A DNA stretch of 64,000 nt from Halobacteriales archaeon YIM A00010 (GTDB taxonomy: Archaea; Halobacteriota; Halobacteria; Halobacteriales; Haloarculaceae). The DNA lies in the NCBI GenBank assembly GCA_025041175.1, contig JAKCFJ010000002.1, positions 186,001-250,000 of the forward strand. Reading direction: 5' to 3'. The notes below the pieces were generated by a model. It did not search any database, was not told the DNA's origin, and saw only the letters and a program-made list of their open reading frames with translations. Position numbers and translations under genes: made by a program. Below are positions 27,402 to 40,498 of this stretch, piece by piece (positions within the stretch are counted from its first letter, which is position 1; every line of letters begins with the position of its first letter).

Positions 27402-27556
27402 ACAGTGAATGAGTCTAGAACGGCGCAAACAGCTCCTACAGTATACACTGTACAAACGTTCTACTTCGGCAACAGGGTAGCTCCGGATCACACACTGCCA
27501 CCGTCAACAGTACAAGCAGCCCCAACAGTTCACACTGTACAAACAGTAGAAACAGT
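27402..27556. repeat. ACWGT pentamer cluster downstream of the ParA operon
   Basis: Eight exact ACTGT/ACAGT pentamers lie at 27402, 27438, 27447, 27507, 27525, 27534, 27543 and 27552. Six units from 27507 (one imperfect, GCAGC) are spaced at exactly 9 bp; four units at 27429-27460 keep the same period. ACWGT is its own reverse complement, so each unit is a palindromic half-site pair with a 4-base spacer. It ends 25 bases from the stop of the small partner gene. Confidence 0.8.
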
Positions 27557-27580
27557 AAAAGATGTGTGAGCGCTACCGGA

Positions 27581-27998: not shown

Positions 27999-28862
27999 TT
28001 ACGCACGCTCCGCGACGATCTCTGCGAGTGTGTCGAAATGCTTGATCTGGTCGCACGAGGCGTCGTACTGCGCCACAGGTTCGTTGTTGGAGAACGAATC
28101 CGAAAGGGCGTCCCGTTCCCGAATGCCGGGGAGTGGGATGTCTCCCCGGCCGTTGGCGTCGATCTGCTCCCACTGCTCGTCGGTGATACGCGCATACGGG
28201 GGGAGATAGTCGGCCCAGTTCCTGTTGAGATCCTCGAGCAGACGGCGGTCGGGTTTGTTCGGCCGGATCGATTCGCTCAACATGTTCGGTGTAATCGCCA
28301 GAATGTCGGCTGCGCCGTCGGTCGCCTCGATGATCGGGAGGAGCTGTGATTCCATGATGCGTTCGAGACCACTGATGCTTCCCTGTCCAGGAATGACCGG
28401 AACGATGAAGCTCTGGGCAGCAACGAGCGCATTATCCGCCACTTTCGAGGGATCGCCGGGCGTATCCAACACAACGTACTCGTATCCATCCGCGCGCAAC
28501 GGATCGACGACCTCGTTTTTGAGGATGACGTCGGCGTTCATCTGATTTTTCATCCGATCGTTGATCGTAGACATTTCCGTGGAGCTGGGGACGACGCTGA
28601 ATCCACACTCCGTCTCGATGACGAGTTCGGATGGATGCGTGTCCCGGAAGATGACCTCTTCGAGGTGCCCGTTCTTGCTGTAAGCGTTCCCGAATCCGAG
28701 GAACTCCGTGCCGTGCCCGTTCTTGTCGACATCGACGTACACTGTTTCGCCGTAGTTCTCCTGAAGACGGTGTGCGAGGTTGATCGCGATTGTCGATTTC
28801 CCCATTCCGCCTTTCAAAATACAGACTGCAACGACGCCGTTTTGGGATGTTTGTGGTTTCAT
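27999..28862 (-). CDS. parA: ParA-family partition ATPase
   Basis: The 287-residue protein has the deviant Walker A motif KGGMGKST (residues 18-25, with the signature Lys), VYVDVDKNGHGTEFLG as the A' motif, EYVVLDTPGDPS as Walker B, and QSFIVPVIPGQGSISGLERI. ParA proteins form ATP-dependent gradients on DNA and move plasmids or chromosomes through a partner bound to a centromere. There is no N-terminal HTH, so it resembles the short, type Ib/Soj-like group. Sites GCTGT, ACTGT, ACTGT at 28877-28899 sit directly upstream of the start and may let its partner repress the operon. Confidence 0.85.
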   Translation of the reverse strand: MKPQTSQNGVVAVCILKGGMGKSTIAINLAHRLQENYGETVYVDVDKNGHGTEFLGFGNAYSKNGHLEEVIFRDTHPSELVIETECGFSVVPSSTEMSTINDRMKNQMNADVILKNEVVDPLRADGYEYVVLDTPGDPSKVADNALVAAQSFIVPVIPGQGSISGLERIMESQLLPIIEATDGAADILAITPNMLSESIRPNKPDRRLLEDLNRNWADYLPPYARITDEQWEQIDANGRGDIPLPGIRERDALSDSFSNNEPVAQYDASCDQIKHFDTLAEIVAERA

Positions 28863-28876
28863 AATGTGTGTTGAAT

Positions 28877-30044
28877 GCTGTGTATACTGTGCATACTGTG
28901 TACGAATCTTGTTGAGTACTGTATAAACGGTGTATGCCGTCGGTACATCATAATAATCCCGGTTTCCTCATCTCTCGTGCACCATACAAACAATAGTACA
29001 GTGTATACATCATACACTGTTTGAACTGTTTAGAATGTAATATACTCGTTATCCGTGACGGTTTAGAGCGTCTATACTGTTTGTACAGCATTCACATCGC
29101 AAAGAGTGTGGGAAGTTTAACTCTCATACTGCTCACACAGTAAGCGCTGTCTTTACCTGGGACAACGTGTGTACTGCGGGAGCTTCTTGTACTGTATACA
29201 CTGTATAGAACGCACGGATGTATGGAGCCACTGGTGCTACAGCTGTTTATGCAGTATAAACTGTGCTAACAGTACTGAATGCTCGTACGTTTACAAACGT
29301 GGGAACAGTCACGTGGGTAGCGATTGAGAGTGTCATAACGCTACGACAGTAAGCACTGTTTATATCGATGAGACAGTTAGTACGGTGTGTACAGTGTAGA
29401 CATCTGTCGTGTGTAGATTGGTGTTCCTTCAGTCGGCTTTCTGGGACCGACTACCGACAGTTATACTGTCGGTTATGGACCGTCGACCACGCAGTTGCCC
29501 GCTCACCACGCGTCCCATCGCCGCAACACAGACCACCGTCGCCCGCACGTCAGTATGACTGACGGTATTAACGCAGTGTGTCTGTAGTGGTGATGTGCAT
29601 ACTGTACTAGCATGGTATGTTTCTAGGTTCACAGCTGAACCGTGCATCCGGTATCTACTGTGTAAACATCTCATACAGTTAGCACAGTACTGGGGAAGTA
29701 GTACGGTCGTTCAACTGTTTGCACTGTTTATACAGTACTTAATTCGTGTACTTCTCTCTCACCCACGCATCGCCCTCATCGAGGGTATGGATTTGAAGGC
29801 GTACGGTTTACACTGTATAAACTGCTAATACTGTATGTGATTCTATCAATGTGTTCACTGTAACAGACGTTCGGACAGTGTCCTCATCGCACTTTCTATA
29901 CAGCGTTGGAGGTGGACACTGTTTCAACAGTACAAACGTTACATACTGTGAATGTGCAGTGCGCGCGGTCGTTGGGTGATACACAGTTCCCACATTGTAT
30001 ACTGTAGATACAGCACAAACTGTTTATACTGTGCTAAACGCTGT
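28877..30044. repeat. Large ACWGT array upstream of parA with 9-bp phasing
   Basis: I count 37 exact ACTGT or ACAGT pentamers here, against roughly 2-3 expected by chance. Most lie in short runs on a strict 9-bp lattice, with degenerate units (GCTGT, ACGTT, ACATC, ACGGT) filling intermediate positions. Clear runs are 28998-29038, 29242-29273, 29346-29404, 29714-29736, 29803-29834, 29918-29949 and 29983-30041 (seven units). The consensus is RCWGT with a 4-base spacer. The stretch is AT-rich and carries no credible gene, so it looks like a centromere or origin-type locus. Confidence 0.82.
29454..29564. repeat. Two perfect palindromes in the site-poor core of the array
   Basis: CCGACAGTTATACTGTCGG at 29454-29472 is a perfect palindrome with 8-bp arms. 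CGTCAGTATGACTGACG at 29548-29564 is another, with 7-bp arms. They flank a GC-richer segment (29410-29600) almost free of 9-bp lattice units. The first contains two ACWGT pentamers at 8-bp rather than 9-bp spacing. Confidence 0.65.
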
Positions 30045-30106
30045 AAGCGTATTCACATCTCACACCGGGAGAACATCATATGGACCGTACGTACCGGCTG
30101 GACAGT

Positions 30107-33941: not shown

Positions 33942-33991
33942 TCACAAGAGCGAAGCTCTTGTGAGCGAACGAATCGCTCTGCGATTCGTTC
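33942..33991. repeat. Hairpin pair at the 5' end of the broken tnpB
   Basis: Two adjacent perfect hairpins: a 10-bp stem TCACAAGAGC with loop GAA (33942-33964) and an 11-bp stem GAACGAATCGC with loop TCT (33967-33991). They sit at the point where TnpB similarity begins. Confidence 0.85.
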
Positions 33992-34374
33992 ACGCTAGAT
34001 TGTTTTCAAACTTCGAACTCGACAAGAAGAGTGGTCAGACTGTGTTGGAACTGTCGAAACTCGCGGATATTCCACTACGAATGCACCGACCGATTCCTGA
34101 CGCGGCGAAGCTCAAAGAGGTCACGCTCAAAAAAGAGCCGACCGGTGAGTGGTTCGCCATCTTCGGCATCGAATTCGACCGAGAGCCGCCCGAACCGCCC
34201 GAGAATCCCAACAACGTCGTCGGTATCGACGTTGGGATTCTCAAATACGCGCACGACACAGATGGAACGGCGGTTGGGTCGCTCGACCTCTCCGACGAGC
34301 GTGAACGGCTCGAACGCGAACAGCGGACCCTCTCTCGGAAAGAATACGGCTCTGCCAACTGGGAGAAACAGCGT

Positions 34375-34433
34375 CACCAGAAATCTTCGATTTCTGGCTG
34401 GCGAACGAGACGCTCGCGTCTCGTTAACGCAAA
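34375..34433. repeat. 59-bp insertion of two hairpins inside tnpB
   Basis: Between codons CGT (34372-34374) and CGC (34434-34436), where TnpB proteins read Arg-Arg, lie a 9-bp stem CCAGAAATC with loop TTC (34377-34397) and a 10-bp stem AACGAGACGC with a 2-base loop (34404-34425). The 59 bases shift the frame by two. Confidence 0.85.
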
Positions 34434-34844
34434 CGCGTGGCAGAGTGTCACGATACGATCAAATGCAAACGCCGTGACTTCCTCCACAAACTATCGACCT
34501 ACTACGCTCGGGAGTACGATCTCGTCGCTGTAGAGAATTTGAACGTTGTCGGGATGATGCAGTTCAACTCGAACTCACGAAACCGAGCAGCCGCTGCATG
34601 GGGTACTTTTCTACGGATGCTCGAGTATAAATGCGAACGGGAAGGAACGCATTTCGTCCCGGTTGACCCACGGAACACCACCAAAGAGTGCGCTGCTTGC
34701 GGCGTGAAAACCGATAAACCGCTGTGGGTCCGCGAACACGCCTGTCCATCGTGTGGATTCACCACAGACAGAGACTGGAATGCAGCGTGGAACATTCTTT
34801 CTCGCGGGATCAAGCAATTAGGAGTGGGACACTCCGAAGTCACG

Positions 34845-34900
34845 TGGTCCGAGAGAGCGAAGCTCTCTCGTCATCACGAAAATCTTCGATTTTCGAACGA
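34845..34900. repeat. 56-bp insertion of two hairpins near the tnpB 3' end
   Basis: Between ACG of GVGHSEVT and CCT of PVETALP lie a 9-bp stem CGAGAGAGC with loop GAA (34850-34870) and an 8-bp stem CGAAAATC with loop TTC (34877-34895). The 56 bases again shift the frame. Confidence 0.85.
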
Positions 34901-34966
34901 CCTGTGGAGACTGCGCTCCCTACGGGAACCACGGCGGTTCCTGCAAAGCGTGTCGTGGAAACAGGA

Positions 34967-35012
34967 AGCCCCTCCCTCAAGCGCGAGCCGTCAGGCGAGC
35001 GGTAGGGTGGGG
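34967..35012. mobile_element. tnpB right-end hairpin (guide-RNA scaffold region)
   Basis: A GC-rich imperfect hairpin CCCCTCCCTCAAGCGC, loop, GCGGTAGGGTGGGG overlaps the last codons of the broken tnpB. In IS200/IS605 elements this position carries the right end and the 3' part of the guide RNA. It borders the stop codon of queC. Confidence 0.5.
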
Positions 35013-35016
35013 TCGT

Positions 35017-35703
35017 TCACGCGTAGTCCGGTCGTTGTTCGTACGTAATGGGATCGCGCACCCCGATCCGCTGGAACGCCTGGAGGCGGTAAGCACACGC
35101 GTCACACGTCCCACACGCCGGCTCGTCGCTCCGGTAACAGCTCCACGTCAGTTCGTAGGGCACGCCCCGCTCGACCCCGCGGGCCGCGATGTCGGTTTTC
35201 GACCATTCGGCGAACGGTGCTTCGACGGTGATGGCTGTCTCGTCTTTCGTGCCGGTGTCGACGAGGCGTTGAAACGCCTCGAAAAACGCCGGGCGACAGT
35301 CCGGATAGCCGGAGAAGTCCTCCGAATGCGCGCCGGTGAACACCGCGTCACAGTCGTTCGCTTCGGCGTATGCGACCGCCATCGAGAGGAGGTTGGCGTT
35401 CCGGAAGGGGACGTACGAGTCCGGCACTTCATCGCGTTCGAGGTCGGCCTCGGAAACGGCCAGCCCCTCGTCGGTGAGGCTCGATGCGCCGATCTTCGAG
35501 AGATGGTCGGTGGTCAACCGCAGGAAGTCGGTCGCGCCGAACCGTTCGGCCTGGGCCTTCGCACACTCGTACTCCTTCGATTCGGTTCGCTGTCCGTAGG
35601 AGGTGTGGAGCATGTACAGCTCGTACCCTCGTTCCTGTGCGACCGCTGCCGCTGTCGCGCTGTCCATGCCGCCCGACGCGAGCACCACTGCCCGGTCGCT
35701 CAT
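35017..35703 (-). CDS. queC: 7-cyano-7-deazaguanine synthase (QueC)
   Basis: This ATP-dependent enzyme turns 7-carboxy-7-deazaguanine into preQ0, the precursor of archaeosine in tRNA. The 228-residue protein has the PP-loop SGGMDSATA near residue 10 and the C-terminal zinc site CYRSDEPACGTCDACAYR. Length is normal. It is the last gene of a queD-queE-queC run on the minus strand, 57 bases after queE. Confidence 0.92.
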   Translation of the reverse strand: MSDRAVVLASGGMDSATAAAVAQERGYELYMLHTSYGQRTESKEYECAKAQAERFGATDFLRLTTDHLSKIGASSLTDEGLAVSEADLERDEVPDSYVPFRNANLLSMAVAYAEANDCDAVFTGAHSEDFSGYPDCRPAFFEAFQRLVDTGTKDETAITVEAPFAEWSKTDIAARGVERGVPYELTWSCYRSDEPACGTCDACAYRLQAFQRIGVRDPITYEQRPDYA

Positions 35704-38668: not shown

Positions 38669-39835
38669 TTAGCGGTGCAGTTCGGCGTCTGTCCGTCGAA
38701 TTGTCGGCGGCCGTCCACCGGTCTGGACGACGTTGAACGCTCGCATGAGGTCCGTTCGAGAGATGATGCCGACGAGCTGCTCGTCCGAATCGACGACCGG
38801 GAGCCGTCCGACCTCGCGCTCTTGTATCCGCTCGAACGCTTCCATCGCGTCAACACTGGGAGTGACCGTTTCGACAGGGGTCGACATCACGTCACCAACG
38901 CGGTAGGCGTCCTGTTCGACGGTCTGGATGTCCGCCGCGTCATCCAGCGTGATCACGCCGACGAGTTCTTCGCCGTTCACTACGGGATAACCGATGTGAC
39001 CGTCTTCGAACATCCGGTCCAGGAGCTCGGCGATGCTGGTGTCCTTCGAGACTGTTCTGAGGTTCTCTTTCGGTGTCATCACGTCATCCACGGTGACGCC
39101 TTCGAAGGACGCCTTGATGGAGGTCTGTTGTGCTTCTCCGGAGGCGGCAATGTAGATGAAAAACGCCAGCAGAATGAGAAACCAGTTGGTGAACACTCCG
39201 ACGATCCCCAACACGAACGCGAAGAACTTTCCGACCTCAGCGGCTTGCTGTGTCGCCTGTGCGTGGGGCTGGCTCCGGGCGAGCAGCGCCCTGAGGATTC
39301 GCCCACCGTCCATTGGGAAGCCGGGAAGCAGGTTGAACACAGCGAGCACGACGTTCAACACCGCGAGATAGCTGAAGACGAACCGAGCCGCTTCGAACGA
39401 TGCTGGAAGGAAGACGAACGCCCCATAGGAGACGACGCCGATCCCCAGGCTCACGACCGGCCCAGCGCTGGCGATCAGCAGCTCGTGGCGCCAGTCCTCG
39501 GGGAACTCCGCGAAATTGGCCACTCCACCGAGCAACCATAGCGTGATCGAATCGATTTCGTATCCATACCGCATTGCGACCACCGAATGCCCAAGCTCGT
39601 GCAACAACACACCAATGAACAGCCCGACTGCCGACGCAAAGCCCAACACCCACGGCAACCAGCCATTGGTCAGCTGTTCGGCGTTCATCGTCGTGGCAAA
39701 CACCTGATTGAGCAGCTCCACCAACTGAGCGATGTCCCACGCGATGAACGCCGCAAACAGTGGGAGCACGATCAGAAATGTCCAGTTGAGCCTGATCGGG
39801 ATAGTGAACGCCGATCCAACTCGGATTCCTCGCAT
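38669..39835 (-). CDS. Site-2 protease (M50) with CBS domain pair
   Basis: This intramembrane zinc metalloprotease has 388 residues: membrane helices with HELGH (residues 79-83), a second motif NLLPGFPMDGGR at about 168-180 giving the third ligand Asp, and a cytoplasmic CBS pair from about 240 (VDDVMTPKENLRTV, IGYPVVNGEELVGVITLDD, VGRLPVVDSDEQLVGIISRTDLMRAF). CBS domains bind adenosine nucleotides and probably gate the protease. Substrates may be membrane-bound regulators. Confidence 0.88.
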   Translation of the reverse strand: MRGIRVGSAFTIPIRLNWTFLIVLPLFAAFIAWDIAQLVELLNQVFATTMNAEQLTNGWLPWVLGFASAVGLFIGVLLHELGHSVVAMRYGYEIDSITLWLLGGVANFAEFPEDWRHELLIASAGPVVSLGIGVVSYGAFVFLPASFEAARFVFSYLAVLNVVLAVFNLLPGFPMDGGRILRALLARSQPHAQATQQAAEVGKFFAFVLGIVGVFTNWFLILLAFFIYIAASGEAQQTSIKASFEGVTVDDVMTPKENLRTVSKDTSIAELLDRMFEDGHIGYPVVNGEELVGVITLDDAADIQTVEQDAYRVGDVMSTPVETVTPSVDAMEAFERIQEREVGRLPVVDSDEQLVGIISRTDLMRAFNVVQTGGRPPTIRRTDAELHR

Positions 39836-39903: not shown

Positions 39904-40087
39904 ACAGCGTATACAGTGTAAACAGTACGAACAGTGCTGCGTCAACGCTGTCTCTTCCCCGCTACGCGGGCGATCCGGAGACCGCTCGAACTCGTAGAAG
40001 CCGATGGCCGAGGTGTCTCACTACAACCACAGGCCGCACAGTTCGCACGTTTTACAACGCTGGCACTGTATACGATGTCGATACTGT
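39904..40087. repeat. Second ACWGT cluster, 10 kb from the ParA locus
   Basis: Four units at 39904-39935 (ACAGC, ACAGT, ACAGT, ACAGT) and six at 40038-40087 (ACAGT, ACGTT, AACGC, ACTGT, GATGT, ACTGT) lie on 9-bp spacing. The two runs are not in the same phase. No gene occupies this interval. Confidence 0.75.
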
Positions 40088-40183
40088 GCTTATGGACCTA
40101 TAACATCACTTAGCCAATAACATAACAATAAAAATATTTTTCAAAATGACTATCTACCCCCCTGTAGACAACACTACTGTGCT

Positions 40184-40498
40184 ATGTGTGGAAAACAGCT
40201 AACGGACGTGTTCGCCGACCACGCGGAATACGAACCGTTTCCGGACGCGGAGGAGACCGACATGGGGAGAGAGATATTTAGTTTCACAAATAGTAATGGC
40301 GAATATATTATGTACCATCGGTACGATCGTGACTCGTTCATCGCAACGTACACTGACCGACAGGGAGCGTCTCACCACTACCGTGTGACACCCCAGATCA
40401 GCATTCGAGTGTCGACGTTGGTCGTGAACCGACTCGGATACACGCTGATAGACGACGCAACCGATCTCGGTTCGATGCGGGAAACGGCGGAATCGTAA
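40184..40498 (+). CDS. Small hypothetical protein, 104 residues
   Basis: The protein MCGKQLTDVFADHAEYEPFP continues with acidic and aromatic residues and a beta-rich middle (EIFSFTNSNGEYIMYHRYDRDSFIATYTDR). It lacks a signal peptide or membrane segment. I do not recognise a family. Codon use and acidity fit a haloarchaeal gene. An AT-rich leader with TATA-like sequence (AATAAAAATATTTT) precedes it. Confidence 0.45.
   Translation: MCGKQLTDVFADHAEYEPFPDAEETDMGREIFSFTNSNGEYIMYHRYDRDSFIATYTDRQGASHHYRVTPQISIRVSTLVVNRLGYTLIDDATDLGSMRETAES

Follow-up and report, generated by a model that had tools for sequence, protein, structure and literature searches.

Chromosomal ParABS systems of bacteria combine several 16-bp parS sites with a ParB/CTPase, and in Streptomyces many parS sites help to divide the DNA among spores. 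In the delta/omega system of pSM19035, a pairing of ParA with a ribbon-helix-helix (RHH) ParB, at least four contiguous repeats are needed to activate ParA (PMC9499535). Among archaeal systems, SegB acts through scattered sites that are able to compact and loop a chromosome (PMC12284271), and the features and placing of archaeal centromeres were counted among the outstanding questions in a 2016 review (PMC5120986). The sharing-out of several large replicons in haloarchaea is an open question, which the candidate system described below addresses.

The DNA analysed here (the window) is a stretch of 64,000 nucleotides, bases 186001-250000 of the 1,019,753-bp contig C2 in the 5,969,888-bp genome (G000) of Halobacteriales archaeon YIM A00010. 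The hyphal haloarchaea are, to our knowledge, the only archaea with hyphae and spores. Two chromosomes are reported in all six sequenced strains of these organisms, with a genome size of 5.97 Mb for YIM A00010 (PMC10067837). C2 is likely to represent the minor chromosome of Halocatena/Actinarchaeum.

The window contains two elements of a ParA-type (type I) partition system, namely a Walker ATPase and a repeated cis site beside the par genes (Table 1). The ATPase carries a deviant Walker A motif, KGGMGKST, and its gene is 90-92% identical in congeners. The second gene encodes a small protein, hereafter the partner, with an acidic N-terminal tail and a C-terminal domain of ~80 aa bearing the motif R-E-x-H-D-A, which is matched by no Pfam or NCBIfam model. 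Close relatives of the partner are found in Halocatena pleomorpha, in Actinarchaeum halophilum YIM 93972, where chromosome 2, of 844,905 bp, carries the gene, and in Halobacteriales archaeon YIM A00013; more widely, 136 of 391 genomes in a sample of the class yield a match. Wherever the surroundings of a relative were inspected, its gene comes directly after parA, and on named plasmids it is annotated as a hypothetical protein beside ParA. Two scans of viral contigs recovered no relatives, one of 12 relatives matches an unnamed family in PHROGs, and a literature search, with most subscription papers outside its reach, found no description of the partner or of its DNA repeat. In some relatives the coding region of the acidic tail itself displays a 9-bp repeat pattern (L103:5126-5188, L115:4704-4941). 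AlphaFold models of the whole partner and of the C-terminal domain, built on an alignment of four rows, consist of helices preceded by a short segment at the N-terminus (pLDDT 62 and 70); being monomer models, they cannot display a dimer ribbon. The best Foldseek/VIA-align scores of these models (Z of 5.9 and 5.6, to a spliceosome chain) lie within the range quoted as common, and no ribbon-helix-helix or other DNA-binding fold is present among the few matches that Foldseek returned for these low- to middling-confidence monomers. A comparison of the partner profile with PDB chains, in which homology to SegB was sought, gave no match except two chance ones near E=4.

Table 1. Positions, in the window, of the par genes, the lattices beside them and the target site with its neighbours
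Feature	Position	Strand	Remarks
parA, ParA/MinD-type Walker ATPase	27999..28862	-	PF13614 (AAA_31), E=1e-25
Partner gene, 138 aa	27581..27997	-	directly downstream of parA
Main lattice upstream of parA, 1.2 kb	28877..30077	.	begins 15 bp upstream of the parA start codon
Main lattice downstream of the partner gene	27420..27565	.	
Satellite lattice run 1	39904..39935	.	four 9-bp ACWGT-N4 units
Satellite lattice run 2	40029..40087	.	seven units of 9 bp, partly decayed
M50 (site-2 protease type) peptidase with two CBS domains	38669..39835	-	Pfam PF02163, PF00571
104-aa ORF without family	40184..40498	+	adjoins the satellite in 3 of 5 genomes

The repeated site is a lattice of 9-bp units in runs of 3-13, that is, of contiguous short repeats as are known for centromere-binding proteins of the omega/RHH type. 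The training sites give the consensus GT-D-Y-R-H-AC-W, in which each unit has a dyad at the central W and a second dyad falls on the Y-R step between units; a reading with an 18-bp period was dropped, since this is a harmonic of 9. Three separate measures show that the excess of the lattice over chance is very large: 1) in the window, pairs of ACWGT at spacings of 9, 18 and 27 bp number 16, 15 and 9, and any other spacing up to 30 bp has 0-4. 2) Three-unit matches with at most two mismatches occur 30 times in the window, against 0.06 expected. 3) A position weight matrix trained on the parA-side sites scores run 1 at 36.6 bits and run 2 at 26.1 bits; an order-3 Markov simulation of 12 Mb, fitted to the window, yields no score of 22 or more, and in 8 Mb of sequence simulated from low-GC pieces a score of 26 is attained 0.125 times per Mb and a score of 30 never.

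The cluster around positions 39904-40087, which an earlier sequence-only reading had described as a second occurrence of the parA-type lattice, is real, and lies 9.8 kb from the end of the last parA-side lattice at 30077. That reading had delimited run 1 correctly (39904-39935) and had begun run 2 one unit too late, at 40038 instead of 40029. The four units of run 1 (ACAGC-GTAT-ACAGT-GTAA-ACAGT-ACGA-ACAGT) keep register with an exact 9-bp spacing, and three have a perfect ACWGT; the units of run 2 are ACAGG/ACAGT/ACGTT/AACGC/ACTGT/GATGT/ACTGT, three of the seven being perfect. The two runs are out of phase with each other, with an offset of 125 bp. The intergenic placement away from any par gene likewise holds, with the gene for the M50-CBS protease (-) on one side and the 104-aa ORF (+) on the other.

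A dispersed repeat of ~110 bp with inverted ends (ACTGTCGGT...), MITE-like and present in ~30 copies on C1, C2 and C3, has copies inside the parA lattice (29453-29574 of the window) and at C2:441711-441819, beside a satellite lattice 441 kb along C2. Together with the fact that iterons are a common cause of short-period repeats, these two copies might suggest that the arrays consist of iterons of a replication origin or of relics of a mobile repeat, and that transposition or rearrangement left the satellites behind as copies. We regard this as very improbable: no orc1/cdc6 or rep gene lies within the arrays, the nearest orc1 of C2 being 31 kb from parA; the dispersed repeat, unlike the lattice, is spread over C1, C2 and C3; and the satellites share only core and period, with no longer sequence in common, and are conserved at orthologous places.

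To map the lattice we used a model, R1, trained on 43 sites beside parA, taken from five genomes, with no satellite among them. The sequence-only reading would have been contradicted by an even scatter over the genome, and none is seen: at E<=1, 29 of the 32 matches in the own genome fall on C2, the replicon of parA, one falls on C4 (36228) and the others at a single place on C3 (both strands), with none on the 2.86-Mb C1. At E<=0.05 the satellites are C2:225904, 441649, 447329 and 1001299 and C4:36228, and the two best R1 loci genome-wide include C2:1001299 and the target, C2:225904 (E=0.001). We did not count C4:36228 as proof, its lattice being weak; it lies at the 3' end of a gene for alcohol dehydrogenase, with a shortened Cdc6 gene as its neighbour (L082:7229-7269), and may be a trace of past exchange between replicons. 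The C3 place (711868) was rejected as a weakly scoring match inside a transporter gene. G183:C1:1916091 (L125:5091-5158) was rejected as a coding 9-bp tandem repeat in a Ser/Ala/Asp-rich frame on the main chromosome of that genome. Two congeners, G183 and G392, carry six satellites each on the second replicon, and at least five of the pairs are orthologous by their flanking sequence. For the replicon bias, binomial tests give tail probabilities of 0.004 (G000), 0.0008 (G183) and 0.00007 (G392), from samples that are small and mutually related, congeners and orthologous sites not being independent of each other. The enrichment around parA for which the sequence-only reading had proposed a check is also seen: the densest arrays flank parA, and in both of these related congeners, again with small samples, 4 of 6 satellites are no more than 50 kb away from it (p 0.002 in G183 and 0.004 in G392), as against 1 of 4 in the own genome. 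In G391 the lattice is confined to parA, with no satellite at E<=0.05, and G277, a congener without a close partner, has no R1 match, as would fit the missing partner.

Satellites that are single, small and spread across hundreds of kb might also be used by a protein with a nucleoid-organising or silencing role in the minor replicon, just as Sulfolobus SegB compacts and loops DNA via scattered sites (PMC12284271); the parA array would then merely be its strongest site, and partition secondary or absent. This appears distinctly improbable, for the partner gene is always beside parA and the densest arrays always flank parA.

Five genomes have kept a satellite on the 5' side of the M50-CBS gene, at a distance of 7-10 kb from parA; they are all the genomes with a close partner and a contig long enough to show the region. 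They share the order QueC-QueE-QueD, DnaJ protein, M50-CBS protease, satellite, with parA on the other side; the 104-aa ORF is absent from G183 and G392, in which a different gene comes next. In the alignment with the orthologous region in H. pleomorpha (L075:18673-18731) each unit of run 2 has its counterpart and run 1 has none; hence, run 1 is either younger or was lost in H. pleomorpha. The leader of the 104-aa ORF (40088-40183 of the window, CAAAATGACTATCTA...CACTACTGT) is strongly kept in H. pleomorpha, more so than the satellite. Elsewhere in the window, a TnpB-type transposon protein, broken or frame-split, is encoded between the genes for an Lrp-type regulator and QueC (33961-35048); its ORF at 34437-35048 carries a zinc motif C-x2-C...C-x2-C, and a similar sequence is found in G392 (L090).

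Placement upstream of genes raises the question of regulation. Run 1 sits 69-100 bp upstream of the start codon of the M50-CBS protease gene, a TTTAAG box is found ~30 bp before that codon, and most satellites precede a gene by 60-280 bp. Moreover, the parA operon is probably autoregulated, because the dense arrays overlap its promoter, with the main lattice beginning 15 bp from parA. The lattice might accordingly be a set of operators for a transcription regulator, either the partner or another protein, that controls genes of C2 and, at the target, would be placed just upstream of the core promoter of the M50-CBS protease gene and/or the 104-aa ORF. Several observations make this unlikely, if less so than the two alternatives above: 1) The distance to the M50 start varies, from 61 bp (G183, G392) through 69 (run 1 of the window) and 131 (G338) to 150 (G361). 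2) The neighbours of the satellites are unrelated, and include acyl-CoA dehydrogenase, malectin/MFS, aldo-keto reductase/MFS, subtilase, thioesterase and methyltransferase genes. 3) One satellite, conserved in four genomes (L079, L088, L089, L124), comes right after one stop codon and faces the end of the next gene, which differs in two of the four; between two convergent genes promoter control is unlikely. 4) Neither the restriction to one replicon nor the 1.2-kb array at parA would be explained. We therefore favour partition or replicon organisation over a regulon, because one satellite is conserved between convergent genes and the neighbours have no function in common; a mixed role, as site and in regulation, is possible at the M50 gene.

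To look beyond the genus we used a motif-free test of which period from 6 to 20 best explains the repeated 5-mers upstream of parA. Period 9 is best in 17 of 25 parA loci (five of them from congeners), against 6 out of 37 stretches used as controls; it is also best in 9 of the 10 named plasmids that form a second set, and in 2 of 3 members of a further set, including pHME505 of Haloferax mediterranei; no 9-bp lattice was detected at the nearest partners outside the genus (L093, L097, L098). The core letters differ between lineages: ACWGT here, CCTATT in many Natrialbaceae, AAATT in Haloferax and others, and GAWTC, CTACT or CTTAG elsewhere. Core and partner clade co-vary: a tree built from the partner domain requires 10 core changes against a shuffled mean of 16.7, a value as low being reached in 0 of 200 shuffles, although near relatives help this clustering. 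The segment before the first long helix varies together with the core (EKLSIYP with ACWGT, QRPLYAR with CCTATT, TAKSIYVR with AAATT). The ribbon of ribbon-helix-helix proteins reads DNA, and by analogy this segment of the partner may do the same. CCTATT satellites, though few, are found in the intergenic DNA of Halostagnicola larsenii plasmid 2 (64881-64913, ~20 kb from parA) and Haloterrigena turkmenica pHTUR02 (271369-271410, ~117 kb), and in G213 (~51 kb), and control patterns gave none in these three. GAWTC was dropped as a satellite marker in G326, being too common in coding sequence.

With a probability of roughly 0.7, we propose from these sequence comparisons that the partner is a centromere-binding protein, the lattice its centromere, and the target a satellite on the same replicon that possibly also affects the protease promoter. 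The two-gene system would serve C2, its own replicon. Partner dimers would line up head to tail on the lattice, one dimer per 9-bp unit, as omega does on its 7-bp repeats, and in this state would touch ParA. The dense arrays around parA would form the main centromere, and single runs of ~4-7 units, such as those at 39904-40087, would be secondary sites for loading or bridging, through which remote parts of the replicon join the partition complex. The sequence-only reading had offered two possibilities, satellite sites of a chromosomal partition system or sites of a nucleoid or gene-regulatory protein; the first is supported by the replicon bias and by the conserved convergent satellite. More tentatively, and at slightly less than even odds, ParA, the unnamed lattice-binding partner and a 9-bp lattice whose clade-specific core serves as the address of the replicon might constitute a widespread partition family of the haloarchaea's own; in the hyphal, spore-forming haloarchaea, satellite centromeres spread over the second chromosome might then play a role like that of parS in Streptomyces. 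This would be a candidate type of archaeal centromere, undescribed so far and now testable: the analysis provides a protein family without a database model, its candidate DNA site, a rule for reading the address from sequence, and defined satellites. The family occurs both in the hyphal, spore-forming archaea and in the genetically tractable Haloferax mediterranei.

Among the described systems, bacterial chromosomal ParABS shares with the present one the satellite sites around parA on the same replicon, and differs in its ParB/CTPase, for which the locus here has no gene, and in its 16-bp parS in place of short lattice units. The AspA-ParB-ParA system of pNOB8 is comparable as a partition system of an archaeal replicon with a protein that spreads along DNA (PMC5120986), but it has three genes and a 23-bp palindrome as opposed to two genes and an array. 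SegAB of the Sulfolobales likewise pairs an archaeal ParA-like ATPase with a small protein, encoded after it, that binds DNA, a property that is putative for the partner, and combines palindromic sites upstream of the operon with scattered ones, many of them near the locus (PMC12284271, PMC5120986). However, the SegB site is a 13-bp palindrome mostly located inside genes, whereas the tandem 9-bp lattice is mostly intergenic, and the sites here are ACWGT lattices rather than palindromes of the form TCTAGA-S-TCTAGA (motif from PMC12284271). The pSM19035 system has a 7-bp unit as against a 9-bp unit with a W-centred dyad core; no sequence relation of the partner is detectable, and the sites described here extend over a replicon as large as a chromosome, at distances of up to hundreds of kb. 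Both nevertheless place a small second gene beside a ParA-type ATPase and have a centromere, proposed in the present case, of short contiguous repeats; there are several separate sites, and repeats overlap the par promoters (PMC9499535), and the minimum of four repeats in pSM19035 equals the number of units in run 1.
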